IMG/VR virus record: IMGVR_UViG_3300043595_000015 | Span: 1-33,572 of that record | DNA length: 33,572 nt | Direction: 5' to 3' (one strand) | Origin: a virus | In this document: one piece after another, positions 2,035 to 16,763 of the stretch | Layout: every line of letters starts with the position of its first letter | How positions within the stretch are numbered: position 1 is the first letter of the stretch | The notes under the pieces: generated by a model | Told to the model about the DNA's origin: nothing | The model's database searches: none | The model's input: the letters and a program-made list of their open reading frames with translations, nothing else | Position numbers and translations under genes: made by a program

Positions 2035-2050
2035 GATTTGCGAAAATCGT

Positions 2051-2073
2051 GCGCGTGTATCGAAAACCCGCGC
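2051..2073. promoter_or_regulatory. Operator-like 23-bp dyad 3 (repressor/Cro intergenic region)
   Basis: GCGCG (2051-2055) and CGCGC (2069-2073) bound a 23-bp site of the same length and ends as dyads 1 and 2. It lies between the divergent repressor and Cro-like genes, the place of lambda OR. The inner bases are less symmetric than in dyad 1. Confidence 0.4.
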
Positions 2074-2074
2074 A

Positions 2075-2095
2075 GCGTGTTGACTTCGCACACGT
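2075..2095. promoter_or_regulatory. Second operator-like dyad overlapping the right promoter -35
   Basis: CGTGT (2076-2080) and ACACG (2090-2094) form an inverted repeat whose centre is about 23 bp from the centre of dyad 3. It covers the TTGACT box at 2080-2085. Two adjacent sites over an early promoter resemble cooperative OR1/OR2 binding. Confidence 0.4.
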
Positions 2096-2110
2096 AATGC
2101 GATCCATATT
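2080..2110 (+). promoter_or_regulatory. Candidate early right (pR-like) promoter, possibly leaderless
   Basis: TTGACT (2080-2085) is followed by a 19-nt spacer and CATATT (2105-2110, four of six -10 positions). Transcription would start at about 2116, which is the ATG of the Cro-like gene. This agrees with the absence of a ribosome site there and suggests a leaderless message. Spacing is longer than ideal. Confidence 0.45.
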
Positions 2111-2115
2111 GGATC
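2101..2115. promoter_or_regulatory. Perfect 15-bp dyad abutting the Cro-like start codon
   Basis: GATCCA-TAT-TGGATC: perfect 6-bp arms with a 3-bp centre, ending one base before the ATG at 2116 and covering the proposed -10. It differs from the GCGCG-type dyads, so it may be the site of another regulator such as the Cro-like protein itself. Confidence 0.4.
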
Positions 2116-2412
2116 ATGCACGACGCTCCCCTGACCACCCCCCTGACCTGGGCCGCCATATTCGAGATGTGGCGCGACCCGGCAAATCCCACCGACGGAC
2201 GCCTGGCCCGCAACATGGCCAGAGATGTCGGCGCCGACTTCGAAGCCGTGCGCCAATGGCACAAGGTCGGCGCGGTGCCCTCCCATTACTGGCGCAGACT
2301 GGTCCAGGCCATCGCCCGCCATGCCGGCGTCTGCCTGACTTGCGACGACCTCGCCGCGGCGACCGAAAGGCTGCGCCCGCCGAAGCTGCGCGAGCGCGAG
2401 GATGCCGCCTGA
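2116..2412 (+). CDS. Cro-like HTH regulator (YdaS/carph-isopro-like)
   Basis: A 98-residue protein. Residues ~15-78 match the layout of the small phage antirepressor HTH group: a first helix (IFEMWRDP), an LARNMARDVGADFEAVRQWHKVG helix-turn-helix, then VPSHYWRRLVQAIARHAGV, with the x-P-x-x-Y/H-W tail typical of the carph-isopro/YdaS type. It is divergent from the CI-type repressor and is the first rightward early gene, the position of cro. There is no ribosome site; the ATG lies at the predicted transcription start and next to a 15-bp dyad. Its TGA overlaps the next ATG (TGATG). Expected role: shutting down the repressor promoter and tuning early transcription. Confidence 0.75.
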   Translation: MHDAPLTTPLTWAAIFEMWRDPANPTDGRLARNMARDVGADFEAVRQWHKVGAVPSHYWRRLVQAIARHAGVCLTCDDLAAATERLRPPKLREREDAA

Positions 2413-3074
2413 TGGGCAATAACGCCGACAGCTTCGCCTGGCCACCCCTAGCCATCGACATGCTCCGCAAATATTGGGCGGATGGCGCATCCGCAGGCTA
2501 TATCGCTGGCAGGCTCAACGCCGTGTTCAAGGCCGGGCTCTCCCGCAATGCCGTGATCGGCAAGATCGGCCGGCTCGGATTGCAGCGCGACGAGGATGAA
2601 GTCCGCGCGGCGCGGCGTGAGAGCGGGCGCGCGTCCGGCCGGCTGATGTCCGCAAGGTCGCGCGAGCGGCGCAAGGGCATCATCGAGAAAGCGGTTGCGA
2701 AGTGCGCCGCCGAGCCTGCCGCAGCCGCACCGGCCAAGCCAGCATGGACACCGAACGATCTTACCCCCGTGGCGCCGCCGCCACCACCGCCACGCATCCC
2801 CACCGTCCATGTCAGCGCCATCACCGGCGGCATCATTCCAGGGCCGCATCCGTCGCCGCCCCGCCTGCTCCCGCTGCCAACGCCCGCGCCGGTCTCCGGC
2901 CAACCGCTCACCATCGACCAGCTCACCCACGCATCATGCCGTTGGCCCATCGATCCGGATGGTGAGCATGGCTGGCGCTATTGCGGCAAGCGGCGCGATC
3001 CAAAATCCCGGCTTAGCTGCTATTGCACCGAGCATTTTTCCAGGAGCGTCGGGCGCGCGCGGAGGGCGGCGTGA
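2412..3074 (+). CDS. gcrA-like: GcrA-like cell-cycle transcription regulator
   Basis: A 220-residue protein with both hallmarks of GcrA. The N-terminal HTH (about residues 13-57) contains YWADGASAGYIAGRL and SRNAVIGKIGRLGL, matching the A-x-x-IA-x-x-L...TRNAVIGK-x-x-R-LGL signature. The C-terminal domain (about 170-213) contains the C-x-WPI...W-x-YCG...YC-x-x-H pattern. A long Pro/Ala-rich linker joins them. Host GcrA binds sigma-70 holoenzyme and activates promoters carrying methylated GANTC. A phage copy in the early operon, second after the Cro-like gene where lambda has cII, may redirect host or phage transcription. The ATG overlaps the previous TGA; the stop overlaps the next GTG. Confidence 0.85.
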   Translation: MGNNADSFAWPPLAIDMLRKYWADGASAGYIAGRLNAVFKAGLSRNAVIGKIGRLGLQRDEDEVRAARRESGRASGRLMSARSRERRKGIIEKAVAKCAAEPAAAAPAKPAWTPNDLTPVAPPPPPPRIPTVHVSAITGGIIPGPHPSPPRLLPLPTPAPVSGQPLTIDQLTHASCRWPIDPDGEHGWRYCGKRRDPKSRLSCYCTEHFSRSVGRARRAA

Positions 3075-4256: not shown

Positions 4257-5745
4257 CGTGACGAAAAGCCCAAGGGAACTGCTCGCCGAATGGACGCAGT
4301 ACATCGTCGCCCTCAAGGGCGCGGACCCCTTGCGCATCCAGGTGGAATGCGAAGCCGCCGCCGAACTGCTGCTCGCTGACATCGCCGGCGGCAAGCTTCC
4401 GGCCAGACGCACCGCGATGGACATCGCCAAGGCCGCCGACCTTGCCGGGCTTCCCGATGCCGCCGAGATCGTGTTCCCGTTGTTCGGGCAAGACCCGCCC
4501 AAGACCACAAAGCGCAAGGCCCCACGCGCGCCGGCGGACGCCGATGAGTTCGAGCGCTCCGAAATCGGCCAGATCATCAAGTCCGAGCGCAATGTGCTGC
4601 TCGCCCTGCGCAAGGCCGGCGTGGCGATGCGCTACGACGAGTTCGCCGACCGCTATCTGATTACCGGCCTGGATGGCTATGGCCCGGTGCTGAGCGATCA
4701 TGCCCTTGACGAGCTGTATCTGCTCATCCAGCGCGAATACCTGTTCAAGCCGTCCAAGGATGACTTCGACCGCATCGTGCTGGCCTACGCGCGGCGCAAG
4801 CGGTTCCACCCGGTACGGGATTACCTTGCCAAGCTCGAATGGGACGGCATCGAGCGTCTCGACAACTGGCTTTCGGTTTATGGTGGCGCCGAGGACGACG
4901 CCCTCACCCGCGCCGTTGGCCGCATCGTTCTCATCGCCGCCATCAGACGCATTCGCCGTCCCGGCGTGAAGTTCGACGAGATGCTGGTCATCGAAGGCGA
5001 TCAGGGCACGCTGAAGTCTTCCGCCGTTGCCGCGCTGTCGCCCAACCCGGATTGGGTCACGGATAGCCTGTCGCTGAGCGCTGAAGAAAAGGTGGTGATC
5101 GAACAGACAGCCGGAAAATGGCTTGCCGAGATCGGCGAACTGTCGGGCTACCGAAAGCGCGAGGTGGAGCACATCAAAGCGTTCCTGTCGCGCCAGGTCG
5201 ATAGCGCCCGCCTCGCCTTCGGGCGGCTGCGCGTTGATCGCCCACGCCAGTTCATTGCGATCGGCACCACCAACGAGAAAAATTATCTTATCGACGACAC
5301 CGGCGACCGCCGATTCTGGCCGGTGCGCATCAAAGCGTTCAACGTCGCCAAGATCGTCGAAAATCGGGACCAGCTTTGGGCTGAGGCGGCGCATTGGGAA
5401 GCCGAAGGCGAAAGCATCCGGCTCCCGGTCGAGCTTTGGCCGGACGCGGCTGAGCGCCAAGCCGAGCGCAAGGAGGAGGATGAGTGGACGGCTGTGCTGG
5501 GTGCTTGGCTCGCCGCGGAATCGCGCGATTCCCGTAGCCTGTTCGCGCACAGTCAAAACGGCTTCCGCATCACTATGGCCGAGGTCGCGAAGGGCGCACT
5601 GGGAATCGAGCGGGACAAGCTTGACCCGGCCGTCCAAAAGCGCCTGGCGCGGTGTCTGAAAGCAGCCGGCTGGCACATGTCGCAGAAGTCCAACGGGCAG
5701 CGCTACTGGCGGTGTCAGGAGAGCAATGCGGAAGTGCCCTTCTAA
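4246..5745 (+). CDS. VapE-family replication helicase/primase
   Basis: 499 residues. The middle and C-terminal half match the VapE (virulence-associated E) family. A P-loop variant EGDQGTLKSS lies at about residues 249-258, replacing the usual G-x-x-G-x-GK-S. It is followed by an acidic segment near LAEIGELSGYRKREVEHIKA, then DRPRQFIAIGTTN and a DDTGDRRFWPV motif characteristic of the family. The N-terminal ~170 residues may hold the primase-like or DNA-binding part. The ATG at 4246 is preferred over the GTG at 4243 because a GAGGGAAGG lies at proper distance. Phage and satellite VapE proteins act in replication initiation. An iteron region starts inside its last codons, which supports an initiator role. 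Confidence 0.85.
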   Translation: MVADVTKSPRELLAEWTQYIVALKGADPLRIQVECEAAAELLLADIAGGKLPARRTAMDIAKAADLAGLPDAAEIVFPLFGQDPPKTTKRKAPRAPADADEFERSEIGQIIKSERNVLLALRKAGVAMRYDEFADRYLITGLDGYGPVLSDHALDELYLLIQREYLFKPSKDDFDRIVLAYARRKRFHPVRDYLAKLEWDGIERLDNWLSVYGGAEDDALTRAVGRIVLIAAIRRIRRPGVKFDEMLVIEGDQGTLKSSAVAALSPNPDWVTDSLSLSAEEKVVIEQTAGKWLAEIGELSGYRKREVEHIKAFLSRQVDSARLAFGRLRVDRPRQFIAIGTTNEKNYLIDDTGDRRFWPVRIKAFNVAKIVENRDQLWAEAAHWEAEGESIRLPVELWPDAAERQAERKEEDEWTAVLGAWLAAESRDSRSLFAHSQNGFRITMAEVAKGALGIERDKLDPAVQKRLARCLKAAGWHMSQKSNGQRYWRCQESNAEVPF

Positions 5746-5967
5746 CAGAAAACATGCGCCCTCAGTGCCCCTGCAACTTACGATATGGGGCACTTGGGCA
5801 CTTGCAACCGCCACTCCTTAAGCCGTTGAAATACCACTGAAAGTGCTGACAGTGCCCTTAGTGCCCTTAAAGAAGATAGAGATCAAAATCATAAGAAATA
5901 TAGGGAAACAAGGGGGGTAGCGCGTGGAAAACAGGGTTTTTAGCACTCTGAGGGAAATCGGGGCACT
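5733..5967. repeat. Iteron cluster with AT-rich tract: candidate replication origin
   Basis: The 7-mer AGTGCCC or its complement GGGCACT occurs seven times: 5733-5739, 5764-5770 and 5851-5857, 5860-5866 on the plus strand, and 5788-5794, 5796-5802, 5961-5967 on the minus strand. Two copies are tandem in each orientation, spaced 8-9 bp. Weaker AGCACT copies lie at 5942 and 5979. Between the second tandem pair and the last copy is an unusually AT-rich tract (about 5867-5910) in an otherwise GC-rich genome. Iterons plus an unwinding-like tract directly after a replication initiator gene are the usual picture of a phage origin. No gene is apparent in 5746-6006. Confidence 0.55.
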
Positions 5968-6006
5968 AGAGGCCCTAGAGCACTGTGAGGCGTAAGGAGG
6001 CGGAGC

Positions 6007-11649: not shown

Positions 11650-11952
11650 ATGAGCAATGTCTTGAACAAGATCGCGACGAAGGCCGCCTTCACCCAGGTC
11701 GCCGACGTTGCAACCAGCGCCGCGCTGCTCGCCGCCAATGGCGCCCGCGTCGGCGCGAGCTTCGTCAACACGAGCAGCGCGAGGCTGTATATCCGTTTCG
11801 ACGGCGGCACGGTATCGAGCGCGAACCATTCCGTCTCCCTAGCGCAGGGGGCGCGGTTCGACCTGCCCTTCGCCTATAACGGAGCGATCACCGGCATCTG
11901 GGCATCCGATCCGGGCGACGGCGCGGCCAACATCACCGAGTATACGAATTAG
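11650..11952 (+). CDS. Small structural beta protein, tandem copy 1
   Basis: 100 residues, clearly paralogous to the next gene. Shared elements in order: N-terminal IATKAAFTQVA, LLAANGARVGASFVNTSSA, LYIRFDGGTVSSANHSVSLA, then a YNGAITGIWASD strand and an acidic ITEYTN end. The all-beta pattern resembles small phage virion proteins found near head and tail-connector genes. The role is not established; capsid or connector decoration is a guess from the gene order. Confidence 0.72.
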   Translation: MSNVLNKIATKAAFTQVADVATSAALLAANGARVGASFVNTSSARLYIRFDGGTVSSANHSVSLAQGARFDLPFAYNGAITGIWASDPGDGAANITEYTN

Positions 11953-11954
11953 CC

Positions 11955-12254
11955 ATGTCCAACTTCCCCAATCTGATCGCGACGAAGGCGGCGTTCACCC
12001 AGGTCGCCAGCGGCACCGGCAGCGTGCCGATCCTGGCGGCGAATGGCAGCCGCATCGGGGCCATCATCACCAATACCGACGCCAACGCGCTGTATTTGCG
12101 CATGGATGGCGGGACGGTGACCGCAGCCAACCATTCGGTGTCGCTGGCGCAGAACGCCAATTACACCGTGCCACATGGCTATAACGGGCTGATCACCGGC
12201 ATCTGGGCTGGCGATGGCGCCGGACATGCCAATGTCACGGAGTTCACAGCGTAA
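11955..12254 (+). CDS. Small structural beta protein, tandem copy 2
   Basis: 99 residues, with the same sequence plan as the preceding gene: LIATKAAFTQVASGTGSVP, ILAANGSRIGAIITNTDANA, LYLRMDGGTVTAANHSVSLA, YNGLITGIWAG and NVTEFTA. Only two bases separate the stop of copy 1 from this ATG. The pair is a tandem duplication with roughly 60% identity by eye. TAATG overlap links it to the next gene. Confidence 0.72.
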   Translation: MSNFPNLIATKAAFTQVASGTGSVPILAANGSRIGAIITNTDANALYLRMDGGTVTAANHSVSLAQNANYTVPHGYNGLITGIWAGDGAGHANVTEFTA

Positions 12255-12598
12255 TGATCACCGACGAATTCAAGAGCGGCATCGAGGCCAAAATCACCGC
12301 GGGTTGCCCGCTGCCGCTCAGCTTCCACTGGGAAGACAAGGGCGGCGGCAGCGCGCTGCTACAGATCGCCATGCCCGTGGAGACGCCGGCTGGCCGACCC
12401 ATCGTCATCGTCGCGTTTCCGGCCGCGATGCCCAAGCAGTTCGTGCCGAGAGCGATTGCGCGGGCCAAGGCGGTCATCGACGAAATCTTCGAACAGAACA
12501 TGGTGGCGGTGGTCATCGCCGGCGGCCCCAGAAACGGCATCGTGAAGCCGCAAAACGCTTTGCTTCTGCCGGATAGCCTCGCGATGGGACGGGCGTGA
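12254..12598 (+). CDS. Hypothetical virion-module protein
   Basis: 114 residues. Mixed beta/alpha with LPLSFHWEDKGGGSALLQIA, VIVAFPAAMPKQFVPRAI and ARAKAVIDEIFEQNMVAVV. No family recognised. It is coupled on both sides (TAATG before, TGATG after), so it is a genuine member of the late operon. Confidence 0.65.
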   Translation: MITDEFKSGIEAKITAGCPLPLSFHWEDKGGGSALLQIAMPVETPAGRPIVIVAFPAAMPKQFVPRAIARAKAVIDEIFEQNMVAVVIAGGPRNGIVKPQNALLLPDSLAMGRA

Positions 12599-12789
12599 TG
12601 GCGCAATTCGACGAAGACGCCTTTCGCGCCGACATCACCATGCCAACTGACGAGCAGGTCGAGCGCGCGGCGCGGCTGCTGAGCATCGCCAATGGCGAGC
12701 GCACGGATTACTGGGTGATCCGCAAGACCGAGGCCCGCGCTTGCCTGATCATTCACCTCAACGCCGCCAAATGGCGGCTGGGGCTGTAA
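12598..12789 (+). CDS. Small hypothetical protein
   Basis: 63 residues (MAQFDEDAFRADITMPTDEQ onward), acidic N-terminus followed by a helix (VERAARLLSIAN) and a short beta/alpha end with WVIRK and CLIIHLNAAKWRLGL. The ATG overlaps the previous TGA; a GTG one codon earlier is the alternative. Family unknown. Confidence 0.6.
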   Translation: MAQFDEDAFRADITMPTDEQVERAARLLSIANGERTDYWVIRKTEARACLIIHLNAAKWRLGL

Positions 12790-12798
12790 CGGAGAGAC

Positions 12799-13095
12799 AT
12801 GATGGCCGATCTCAAGGTGGGCGATACCGTCCGCATCAAGAAGGATGGCGCCAAGGCCGTGGTGACGAACGATTTCGCCGTCCCGGACCGCAAGCAGCAG
12901 CGCGTCGAATATCGCCGCGAGGATAATGGCTCGGTCTATGAATGCTGGGTCGATGAGGTCGTGCGTGTTGGCGGCGGGGCCGCGCCGGCTCCGGTCGCTG
13001 TGGAGGAGGAACCGGAAGCGCCCGCGGAGGAACCTGTCCGCCTCGTCAGGGTTGACGATGCCAAGCCCAAGGGCCGGGCGCGGAAGGCCAACTGA
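12799..13095 (+). CDS. Small KOW/DUF2158-like protein with acidic-basic tail
   Basis: 98 residues. The N-terminal ~60 (LKVGDTVRIKKDGAKAVVTN, RVEYRREDNGSVYECWVDEV) form a small SH3-like barrel of the same general kind as the protein at 7013. An Ala/Pro/Glu-rich linker and a basic KPKGRARKAN end follow. GGAG lies just before the start; a second ATG is one codon later. The reading frame continues in phase beyond its TGA for another 77 codons without a stop (13096-13329). Confidence 0.6.
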   Translation: MMADLKVGDTVRIKKDGAKAVVTNDFAVPDRKQQRVEYRREDNGSVYECWVDEVVRVGGGAAPAPVAVEEEPEAPAEEPVRLVRVDDAKPKGRARKAN

Positions 13096-13329
13096 GCAAA
13101 GCCGCCCTCGCTGTCGTTCAACCGTGAAGCCTTCGAAGCCTATATCGCCGCACATTCGCCGCTGACGCCTGCCCAGCTCGACAGGATGTTCGGCACGGTC
13201 GGTGCGTCGAACAAGCGGGCGGTATGGGACTTTTTGCGGCTGGCCGATAAGGAGCAGCTCGCGCTGTTCTTCCAGGTGGCACGGGCGCAGCGGAGCTTCC
13301 CGCAGGCGGTCGTCACAGGTGTGAAATAG
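13096..13329 (+). other. Open in-phase extension: readthrough domain or gene without a standard start
   Basis: This frame is in phase with the gene at 12799-13095 and separated from it only by a TGA. It encodes 77 codons with protein-like composition (FNREAFEAYIAAHSPLTPAQ, RAVWDFLRLADKEQLALFFQ) and ends in TAG. No ATG, GTG or TTG occurs before the ATG at 13186, which would give only 47 residues. Either the TGA is read through, the gene has been split by a nonsense mutation, or a rare start (for example CTG at 13108) is used. I cannot decide between these. Confidence 0.4.
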
Positions 13330-13360
13330 TTCGTCTGACCTGCCACGCGTAGGCTCAGCA

Positions 13361-13560
13361 TTCGGGCACGCATCATTTTCGCGAGGTGGTGAAAATGATT
13401 GCGTGCCCAGCAGGAGCAAGTCGCTAACCCCGCACACCAAACCGCCACCCTATGGTGGCCGGGCGGGAGGCGCACCCAACTGTTCGGGATTTCCGAATGG
13501 TTGGCCTCAAGACCTGTCCTTGACAGGCCGCCGGGGCTGATCTCCCGGCGCAGTCATTAG
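13361..13560 (+). ncRNA. Cluster of five hairpins: candidate structured RNA in the head-gene operon
   Basis: No gene is visible from 13330 to 13611, but the plus strand folds into consecutive stems. H1: 13364-13408, 9 bp plus 8 bp with a single bulged T and a 10-nt loop. H2: GCCACC-CTAT-GGTGGC at 13444-13459. H3: 13476-13504, 12 bp including tandem U-G/G-U pairs around a 5-nt loop. H4: CCTGTC-CTT-GACAGG at 13513-13527. H5: 13529-13550, 7 bp plus one G-U. CCTGC (13339-13343) and GCAGG (13410-13414) could enclose H1. Wobble pairs within stems favour an RNA rather than a DNA-site explanation. No known RNA family recognised; it could be a standalone phage RNA, a leader or a processing element. 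Confidence 0.5.
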
Positions 13561-13610
13561 CGTCACCATCGACAGCCATTAGTGTCATTTAGCGCACGGA
13601 TTAGCGTCAC
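13556..13610. repeat. Degenerate ATTAGCGTCAC repeats on an 11-bp period
   Basis: ATTAGCGTCAC occurs at 13556-13566 and 13600-13610, ATTAGTGTCAT at 13578-13588 and a degenerate TTAGCGCAC at 13589. The intact copies start exactly 22 bp apart, and the degenerate one falls midway between the last two, so the register is one helical turn. They end one base before the ATG at 13612, where no ribosome site is seen. They may be protein-binding sites or an upstream regulatory element. Confidence 0.45.
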
Positions 13611-13611
13611 A

Positions 13612-13953
13612 ATGCCCGTATCGTACACCGGCCTCGATCTCTCCTTCATGAAGGAAAACCCGCTGCCCAAGGACTGGGGCGGGCGCAAACAGGCCAGGCC
13701 GGACTTTTCCGTGCATGGCTCCGATCTGCCCAAACCCTACTTCATGGATGACATCAAGCCCTTCGTGAACGTCGCCAATTCCGAGCGCGCGCAAATCATC
13801 TCGTCGCGCTCCGAGCTTCGTAGCTTCGAGCGCTCCTTCAACTGCCATCAGGTCGGCAACGATTTCCCGGCCGGGACTGTGGCGGCGAAAAACGAAGCCA
13901 AGCTGGCTGAGCGGGAAAAGCGCGCTGCTGGCGTCGAGAGCGGCTGGGCTTAG
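13612..13953 (+). CDS. Conserved phage head-region protein
   Basis: 113 residues starting MPVSYTGLDLSFMKEN. The stretch DIKPFVNVANSERAQIISSR then SELRSFERSFNCHQVGND resembles a protein often found between portal and scaffold genes, with the pattern DIKPY...I-x-SRS-x-H/L-R-x-x-L...VGND. Its function is not known to me. The frame is open back to a GTG at 13582, but that lies inside the 11-bp repeats; the ATG at 13612 is chosen although it lacks a Shine-Dalgarno sequence. Confidence 0.65.
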   Translation: MPVSYTGLDLSFMKENPLPKDWGGRKQARPDFSVHGSDLPKPYFMDDIKPFVNVANSERAQIISSRSELRSFERSFNCHQVGNDFPAGTVAAKNEAKLAEREKRAAGVESGWA

Positions 13954-13998
13954 CCGTCCTCACAATTTCATAGCAACCGTTACAATCAGGACACCCAC

Positions 13999-15207
13999 AT
14001 GGACGGTGATCGCAGTCCCACGGACTCTGCGGCCGGCGAACGCATTGACCGCGCCGTCGTCGCTTCCGCCTCAAGCAGAAGCTCGGCAATCGACGCAGCT
14101 TTTTCAGCATTCCCCGAATTCGGTGACGATGCTCCTCCCGCCAGCGCGGCGGAGCATTACGCCGAAAAGCCCTCTGCTGACGAGCAGACGGCTGAGCCGG
14201 GCAAGGTTGCCGCGGCCGCCCCTGAACAGGGCGCCGAGACGCCTCCCCCGGACGATAACACACCGGCTCCCGAAGGCCAGCAGGGCCAACCGACGTCGAA
14301 AGACGCATTGGACGCGCCCAAGCATTGGCCCCTGGACCGGCGCACCCAGTTTGCCTCCCTGCCCGATGACGCCAAGCGCATCATCCTGGAGCGGAACAAG
14401 GAGGCCAATGTCGCCGTAACCCGCGCGCAGCAGGAATCGGCGCAATACCGCAAGCATCACGAGGCTGTCACCAGCCTGTTTTCCGACGATCACCGGCGCG
14501 AGATGCAGTCGGCTAACCTGGATGAGATTGGCGCGGTGCGCTATCTCGTCCAGCAGCACGACGCGCTCAACCGCGATCCTGTCGGCTTCCTCAAGGCCGT
14601 CATCGCCCAGACGGGCGTCAAGCCGGAGCAACTGTTCGGGCCGCAAGCCCCAGGACAACAGCCCCAGCCCGGCGCCCAGCCTCCGACCGAGGCGGAATGG
14701 GAAGACCCGGCCGTTGCCACATTGCGTCAGCAGCTCGCCAAGCTTGAGCAGGCGGAGACTTCCCGCCAGCGCCAGGCGCAGGAGCACAGCCGCAACGAGC
14801 AGCAGCGCTTCAATCATTGGTTCGGCGAACAATGCAATGCATTCGAAACCGCCATCGATGACGAAGGCAACCCGAAATACCCGCATCTTGCGGCGGTCAT
14901 GGATGACGTGATCCGTCTCGTCAAAACCGACCCTGCCGCCAGTGGCATTCTGCTCTCCAGGCCCCATGAGGCGCTGGAGAGAGCCTACACCCAGGCCCTT
15001 TATCTCAATCCCGAAATTCGCCAGCAGATCATCGACGCGGACTATGAGCGTCGCCAGAGCGCGGCGGACGCGCAACACGCGGTGAGAAAGGCTCAGGCCG
15101 CAGCCACCCGGAAAGGCTCCCCAGGAGCCTCGGGGCAGGCGCAGGCCAGCCGGCATATGTCACGCGACGAAGCGATCGCCAAGGCGATGCGGGAGGCGGG
15201 CCTATGA
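13999..15207 (+). CDS. Scaffolding protein (probable)
   Basis: 402 residues, acidic and Gln/Ala/Glu-rich. Disordered N-terminal ~95 residues (PAPEGQQGQPTSKD), then KHWPLDRRTQFASLPDDAKR, a helical VAVTRAQQESAQYRKHHEAV and a long central coiled coil (LRQQLAKLEQAETSRQRQAQ). The C-terminus has an Arg/Ala-rich helix and a final MSRDEAIAKAMREAGL, which could contact the coat. Composition, length and place directly before the major capsid gene are those of P22-type scaffolds that guide procapsid assembly and then leave. AGGA lies 9 nt before the ATG. Confidence 0.8.
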   Translation: MDGDRSPTDSAAGERIDRAVVASASSRSSAIDAAFSAFPEFGDDAPPASAAEHYAEKPSADEQTAEPGKVAAAAPEQGAETPPPDDNTPAPEGQQGQPTSKDALDAPKHWPLDRRTQFASLPDDAKRIILERNKEANVAVTRAQQESAQYRKHHEAVTSLFSDDHRREMQSANLDEIGAVRYLVQQHDALNRDPVGFLKAVIAQTGVKPEQLFGPQAPGQQPQPGAQPPTEAEWEDPAVATLRQQLAKLEQAETSRQRQAQEHSRNEQQRFNHWFGEQCNAFETAIDDEGNPKYPHLAAVMDDVIRLVKTDPAASGILLSRPHEALERAYTQALYLNPEIRQQIIDADYERRQSAADAQHAVRKAQAAATRKGSPGASGQAQASRHMSRDEAIAKAMREAGL

Positions 15208-15234
15208 CCCAACTCCTGTTAGGAAGCCCCACCT

Positions 15235-16200
15235 ATGGGTACACCCAACAGCACCTATACCCAGGTGCTAACGGCGTCGATTGCCAATTACTCATCGACG
15301 CTGGAGGACAACATCACGGGCAACAATGCCCTGCTGATGTTCCTCAAGAAGAAAGGCAACACCAAACCGGCTGACGGCGGCGCGGAAATCCTGGAAAACA
15401 TCTTGTTCGCGGAAGCGGCGGCCGGCGGATGGTATTCGGGCTCCGAAGTGCTCTCGACATCCGACAGCGATGTGATGACCTCGGCGAATTTCGCCTGGAA
15501 ACAGCATTACGCGCTGATCACCATGAGCGGCCTGGAGATTACCCAGAACAAGGGTAAGGCCAAGATGCATTCGCTGATCGACGGCAAGCTTGCCGCGGCG
15601 GATGCGAGGATGCAGAACGGCATCGGCGCTTCGCTGGCTTACTCGAACACCGAGTTCTCCGGCAAGGCGATCGGCGGCATGCAGCATCTGATCGCCGACA
15701 GCCCGGCGACGGGCACGGTGGGCGGCATTGTCGCATCCGACGCGGCCAACGCTTGGTGGCGGAACTATGCGTTCGGCTATGGCGCTAATTCGCTGACGGC
15801 CAGCTCCACCACCGTCCTGACCGCGCTGAACACCTCGTTCCTCAACACCAATCGGGGAACGGAAAAGGTGGACCTGGTCCTCGGCGGCTCGACCTATTTC
15901 GGCCATTTCGAGGGTGCGCTGCAGGCCAACCAGCGCTTCATGGATGCCGAACTCGGCAAGGCGGGCTTCGAGGCCTATCGCTACAAGACGGCGATGGTCA
16001 TGCACGACCCGAACTTCTCGGCGACGCGCATGTACGGGATCAACACCAGCACGGTGTCGTTCCGTCCCGACCCTGATCGCAACTTCACGCAGGGCGACAA
16101 GGTCAAGCCGGTCAATCAGGACATGTTCGCGGTGCCGATGTGGTTCACGGGCAACCTGACCATCCGGTCGCGCCGGCGCAACTTCGTCATCATCGCCTAA
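15235..16200 (+). CDS. Major capsid protein
   Basis: 321 residues starting MGTPNSTYTQVLTASIANYS. Features fit the HK97-fold coat proteins of short-tailed phages: LEDNITGNNALLMFLKKKGN, a glycine-rich WYSGSEVLSTSDSDVMTSAN loop, FAWKQHYALITMSGLEITQN leading into a long helix, a central LVLGGSTYFGHFEGALQANQ, and MFAVPMWFTGNLTIRSRRRN near the end. Located between scaffold and probable decoration protein. It builds the icosahedral shell. Confidence 0.87.
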   Translation: MGTPNSTYTQVLTASIANYSSTLEDNITGNNALLMFLKKKGNTKPADGGAEILENILFAEAAAGGWYSGSEVLSTSDSDVMTSANFAWKQHYALITMSGLEITQNKGKAKMHSLIDGKLAAADARMQNGIGASLAYSNTEFSGKAIGGMQHLIADSPATGTVGGIVASDAANAWWRNYAFGYGANSLTASSTTVLTALNTSFLNTNRGTEKVDLVLGGSTYFGHFEGALQANQRFMDAELGKAGFEAYRYKTAMVMHDPNFSATRMYGINTSTVSFRPDPDRNFTQGDKVKPVNQDMFAVPMWFTGNLTIRSRRRNFVIIA

Positions 16201-16735: not shown

Positions 16736-16763
16736 GCAGAGGCGACAACGTTGTCGCCTCTGC
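16736..16763. terminator. Perfect 28-bp palindrome at the end of the head genes
   Basis: The arms GCAGAGGCGACA (16736-16747) and TGTCGCCTCTGC (16752-16763) flank ACGT, and the whole 28 bp is self-complementary. There is no T-run on either side, so it may be a factor-assisted terminator, an mRNA-stabilising 3' stem for abundant coat transcripts, or a protein site. Confidence 0.45.

Follow-up and report, generated by a model that had tools for sequence, protein, structure and literature searches.

The window, that is the whole stretch of 33,572 bases that was analysed, is a complete virus record with the layout of an Mx8-like short-tailed phage: terminase, portal (phrog_12082), major head protein (phrog_9953) and tail genes. 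Its named relatives, at 25-37% protein identity, include the Myxococcus phages Mx8 and Mx9, Bradyrhizobium phage ppBjS10J-1 and Stenotrophomonas phage BUCT555. The phage also carries a gene of the GcrA cell-cycle regulator family (window 2049-3074), and the known range of this family suggests that the host is an alphaproteobacterium. No tRNA genes were found in the window. The features at and around the start of the capsid genes are:

13353-13417, plus strand, hairpin domain 1: a 19-bp stem with one bulge (13364-13382/13389-13408), loop GAGGTG, and a 6-bp base; folded alone z = -6.85
13420-13475, plus strand, hairpin domain 2: three stacked helices of 6, 5 and 8 bp; the weakest when folded alone, z = -2.07
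13476-13504, plus strand, hairpin 3: 12 bp with tandem U-G/G-U pairs, loop GATTT; alone z = -5.64
13513-13527, plus strand, hairpin 4: 6 bp, loop CTT; alone z = -3.07
13529-13550, plus strand, hairpin 5: 8 bp, loop CTGATC; alone z = -3.06
13556-13609, plus strand: three ATTAGYGTCA copies starting at 13556, 13578 and 13600, 22 bp from start to start
13612-13953, plus strand: first gene of the capsid module, 113 aa, immediately before the scaffold gene; homologues occur in Mx8-like phages
13999-15207, plus strand: putative scaffold gene, 402 aa, assigned by position and relatives (tblastn against L002, L014, L017 and L018)
15235-16200, plus strand: major head protein gene (phrog_9953, E 3.6e-72)
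16736-16763, plus strand: perfect 12-bp hairpin with no U-tract, at +1501 from the capsid gene start; the 101-nt stretch has z = -5.08

The start of the 113-aa gene at 13612 was fixed by alignment with L002, L013 and other relatives, and 282 bases separate its ATG from the stop codon at 13329. Over 13330-13611 all six frames have a negative codon-usage score, whereas the flanking genes score positive. The preliminary description had put about 200 nt with no gene here, and 13353-13550 (plus strand) is indeed non-coding in all six frames by this score. Two antisense open reading frames (ORFs) of 398 aa and 111 aa that run across the hairpins are not genes by codon usage. On the upstream side a 98-aa ORF ends with TGA at 13093-13095, after which the frame is open to the TAG at 13329. 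This extension (13096-13329) has coding-like codon usage from its first codons, and no ATG, GTG or TTG occurs before 13187; it may come from stop-codon read-through (a 77-aa extension), be a gene that starts at a non-standard codon, or be an artefact of sequencing or decay. Searches found no relatives of it, and L092, which was returned as one, is a spurious match.

The plus strand of 13350-13555 (206 nt) folds with -104.8 kcal/mol (z = -5.85), and none of 200 dinucleotide-preserving shuffles is as stable; in the minus direction the same stretch gives z = -4.51. When the plus strand was scanned in overlapping 200-nt windows, the hairpin stretch came second of 334 (z -6.1, against a mean of -0.44 and an sd of 1.32). 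The strongest-folding position, 15101-15300 (z -7.3), spans the end of the scaffold gene and the start of the capsid gene and is mostly coding. The five stems in a row that had been described are there: five domains adjoin one another at 13353-13550 on the plus strand with gaps of 2, 0, 8 and 1 nt, their mean pair probabilities are 0.83-0.99, and every one of them beats its own shuffles when folded alone (z from -2.1 to -6.9). The 12-bp stem with its tandem U-G/G-U pairs is as first reported; the long stem has to be corrected from 17 bp to 19 bp with one bulge. Single hairpins of at least 10 bp are no commoner in the window (16) than in shuffles (4-16), so the clustering is the unusual part: five side-by-side hairpins are not expected by chance in the GC-rich DNA of the window, whereas single ones are. 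It should be added that the wobble pairs, which had been taken to speak for RNA, are present but express only a mild preference, since parameters for single-stranded DNA produce nearly the same fold (z = -6.4). A structured plus-strand RNA at the 5' edge of the scaffold and capsid genes is nevertheless a sound reading.

Relatives were collected through searches with the portal, head and 113-aa genes. The hairpin sequence is in none of them and no stem is kept in any. BLAST against 50,697 phage and 72,556 plasmid records returned nothing beyond 30 bases, the sole partial DNA match being 30 bp in Vibrio phage pYD21-A, and 398 Pseudomonadota genomes yielded three matches of 22-37 nt at chance level. 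Rfam gave nothing at the gathering threshold; the best sub-threshold match of a relaxed search had 13.5 bits against 70 and lay on the opposite strand. A covariance model of the element found no full match among about 115 loci (92, later 28 more) or in ten whole records, but it was built from a single sequence, which limits its reach, so that absence of matches is not proof. Apart from the element itself, it picked up that element's complementary stems and short pieces no better than chance. Neither hairpin 3 nor a linker, scanned for as exact patterns, led to a second element, and the stretch was rejected as a tRNA or tmRNA. To the extent that these searches reach, the element appears private to this phage. 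Neither an Rfam family nor a known mobile element, the two identities that the preliminary description had weighed against novelty, was found; its proposal of a new phage RNA class is all the same not supported, because there is no second member to define a family, and the stems are not kept in relatives, which it had named as a sign against the class. Nothing in the analysis points to the roles in packaging or assembly that it had suggested.

The founding member of such a class could be a separate, trans-acting phage non-coding RNA carried as cargo between the portal and scaffold genes. The compact and well-defined multi-domain fold would suit this, and so would the interval, where the window, L002 and L013 have small genes that vary and where cargo thus seems to get inserted. 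Structured phage RNAs are known (PMC12286853, PMC2864571), and one relative, L012, has a skipping-rope RNA, though elsewhere in its genome (387-525, RF02924, 40 bits, about 6.4 kb upstream of its portal gene). Like GOLLD, ROOL (PMC12286853) and skipping-rope (Rfam RF02924), the element would be a structured RNA borne by a phage, but it has no Rfam match; GOLLD and ROOL, in addition, are larger RNAs often found close to tRNA islands, and the window has no tRNA gene. As there is no homologue or structural match in any collection searched, and as the plus strand shows neither a promoter-like nor a terminator-like site belonging to it, we regard a trans-acting RNA as decidedly unlikely. A more specific version, in which a discrete five-domain RNA of about 200 nt would serve capsid assembly or expression as cargo of the interval, with relatives too diverged or too rare for the collections searched, we find improbable. 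Within the variable cargo interval, at 11650-12254, the window has two adjoining related genes of about 100 aa each that resemble each other at both the N- and the C-terminal end and apparently arose by tandem duplication; L008 and L009 have a homologue of them upstream of their portal gene.

Presence in this phage only, with nothing of the kind at the same position in any relative, is also what a small inserted DNA element would leave behind, intact or as a remnant (a MITE, a REP-like palindromic element, an intron remnant), and such an element would have no role in the capsid operon. The good fold as single-stranded DNA would agree with an insertion, and so would the neighbouring ORF 13096-13329, which lacks a usual start codon and might be decaying. 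A mobile element is recognized by multiple copies or flanking target repeats. The window has one copy, and no second one was found there, in the phage or plasmid records or, beyond chance-level pieces, in the 398 Pseudomonadota genomes; no direct repeats were reported on the two sides of the whole element, and no Rfam intron matched. An insertion is therefore a poor candidate in our judgement.

The three ATTAGYGTCA repeats sit between hairpin 5 and the ATG of the 113-aa gene. No other viral contig searched has a pair of repeats of this type at the exact 22-bp spacing. They may be operator-like and bind a protein that controls the downstream genes. They could also be part of a cis-acting leader controlling translation of the 113-aa and scaffold genes, for example autogenously by a head protein. 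The element immediately precedes the start codon at 13612, the repeats end beside the ATG, and the Shine-Dalgarno match before this start is weak (-3.3 kcal/mol). Sites just as weak precede several other genes of the window, however, and the hairpins stop about 60 nt before the start codon and leave it uncovered; moreover, leader and repeats are found in no relative. Translational control of this kind is in our view unlikely, although it deserves some weight.

A spacing of 22 bp places the repeats two helical turns apart, and the hairpins and repeats together might be a site in the DNA itself, for replication or for a regulatory protein, as the folding with DNA parameters would also allow. Against a site in DNA it counts that the U-G pairs would be mismatches in a DNA cruciform, that there is no sustained switch in GC skew, and that a non-coding, repeat-rich stretch at about 5740-5990 looks more like an origin. 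We consider it very improbable, and a replication origin at the hairpin cluster was rejected for want of a sustained skew change and in view of the better candidate elsewhere. The 5740-5990 stretch lies next to a VapE-like gene, carries AGTGCCC/GGGCACT many times and in both orientations, and is a candidate replication origin or operator array.

What the relatives have at the same positions bears most directly on the function. In the closest one, L002, whose capsid (head) protein is 89% identical, the corresponding interval consists of about 390 bases of unrelated non-coding DNA with a canonical terminator at its end, followed by two small ORFs; the terminator is about 500 nt upstream of the homologue of the 113-aa gene. 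The L002 stretch was rejected as another copy of the element; as a whole it folds no better than shuffles (z -0.32). Forty distinct homologues of the 113-aa gene were compared across Mx8-like phages. Nearly all of them overlap the upstream ORF or begin at most about 12 nt from it, and longer gaps precede the gene in the window, L104 and L015. An intrinsic terminator on the plus strand lies between -350 and +200 of the gene start in five of the 40, all divergent relatives, where about 1.3 would be expected from the background density. Two of the five are just before the ATG (L015 at -23, L104 at -39) and three are inside the first codons (L098 at +64, L082 at +66, L105 at +81).

On the 3' side 12 of 20 relatives have a terminator downstream of the capsid gene start, at a distance of 950-1900 nt, with about 1.1 expected from the background density, and these terminators fall after the gene that follows the capsid gene. 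The window has the perfect hairpin 16736-16763 at this border, and at the 3' border of its own capsid module L002 has a U-poor hairpin that is very long, about 20 bp (L002 9499-9539, +1498). A U-tract terminator was found at neither border of the module in the window; no terminator-like site was detected on the plus strand at 12500-14100, nor by a second detector near 13612. The numbers suggest that in Mx8-like phages the capsid module is often delimited as a transcription unit of its own, on the 3' side more than on the 5' side; both the enrichment and the layout with a terminator-bounded module were noticed after looking, and they are post hoc.

Because relatives have terminators at both borders of the module and the window has hairpins there, we read the cluster as a transcript boundary of the capsid module, set by termination or by RNA cleavage and protection of the end. 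This is the explanation we favour, tentatively and with somewhat less than even confidence. The module would consist of the 113-aa gene, the scaffold gene, the major head protein gene and the next head gene, with the five hairpins as a U-tract-free cluster in the mRNA at its 5' boundary. The cluster would terminate or attenuate transcription arriving from the terminase and portal genes; alternatively, an RNase acting on double strands would cut the long stem. In either case the abundant scaffold and capsid message would become a separate, hairpin-capped transcript, ending at the matching hairpin 16736-16763. What the analysis shows is the folding potential, the non-coding nature and the position of the cluster, and the terminators at equivalent positions in relatives. 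That the cluster takes the place of a terminator would follow by inference, and termination and cleavage look alike in sequence alone. The syntenic support for the boundary is indirect.

Several observations speak against it. The cluster has no U-tract, so that standard intrinsic termination is not predicted; 35 of the 40 homologues have no terminator near the start of the 113-aa gene and nearly all have no gap, which means that a boundary there is optional; and five hairpins exceed what a terminator needs. If the boundary is true, this phage delimits a highly expressed capsid message with hairpins where relatives use canonical terminators at both borders, and it would suggest that transcript boundaries around the capsid module are a recurrent arrangement in Mx8-like phages. 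The hairpin structure itself is real and well formed, and its function is likely to be of a kind already known.

In phage T7, RNase III processing hairpins lie between genes, and these sites are single hairpins. The cluster has in common with them a long double-stranded stem between genes of one transcription unit, but it consists of five hairpins, and cleavage here is hypothetical. The canonical Rho-independent terminator, a GC-rich hairpin with a run of U, is not what the window has. The terminators of Mx8-like phages (L015, L104, L098, L082, L105 and L002, and the 12 of 20 on the 3' side) share with the window hairpins their syntenic positions, strand and GC-richness; the window hairpins differ in having no run of U and, on the 5' side, in being five and not one. 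By its sequence the cluster fits the hairpin-cluster terminators of bacteria (Gupta and Pal, 2021; PMC8355165), in which hairpins are less than 15 nt apart, poly-U is not required, and 98% of clusters lie within 80 bases of a stop codon. The definition is loose, as most of the inter-operon regions studied had such a cluster. The gaps in our cluster are well below 15 nt, and it begins 24 nt after the stop codon at 13327-13329 if ORF 13096-13329 is a gene; if it is not, the distance is 258 nt, from the stop at 13093-13095. With the former stop, the likeness extends to several close hairpins starting less than 50 nt from a stop codon in GC-rich non-coding DNA, with no need for a U-tract. Unlike the bacterial clusters, this one lies between genes of a phage late module, and five domains including a 19-bp stem are large for the class.

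A minor observation concerns the three terminators inside the first codons of the 113-aa gene homologues (L082 6692-6709, L098 2987-3002 and L105 about 2989-3002). Their T run encodes a Phe-rich GPFF/GFF motif, and each is possibly an attenuator within the coding sequence.
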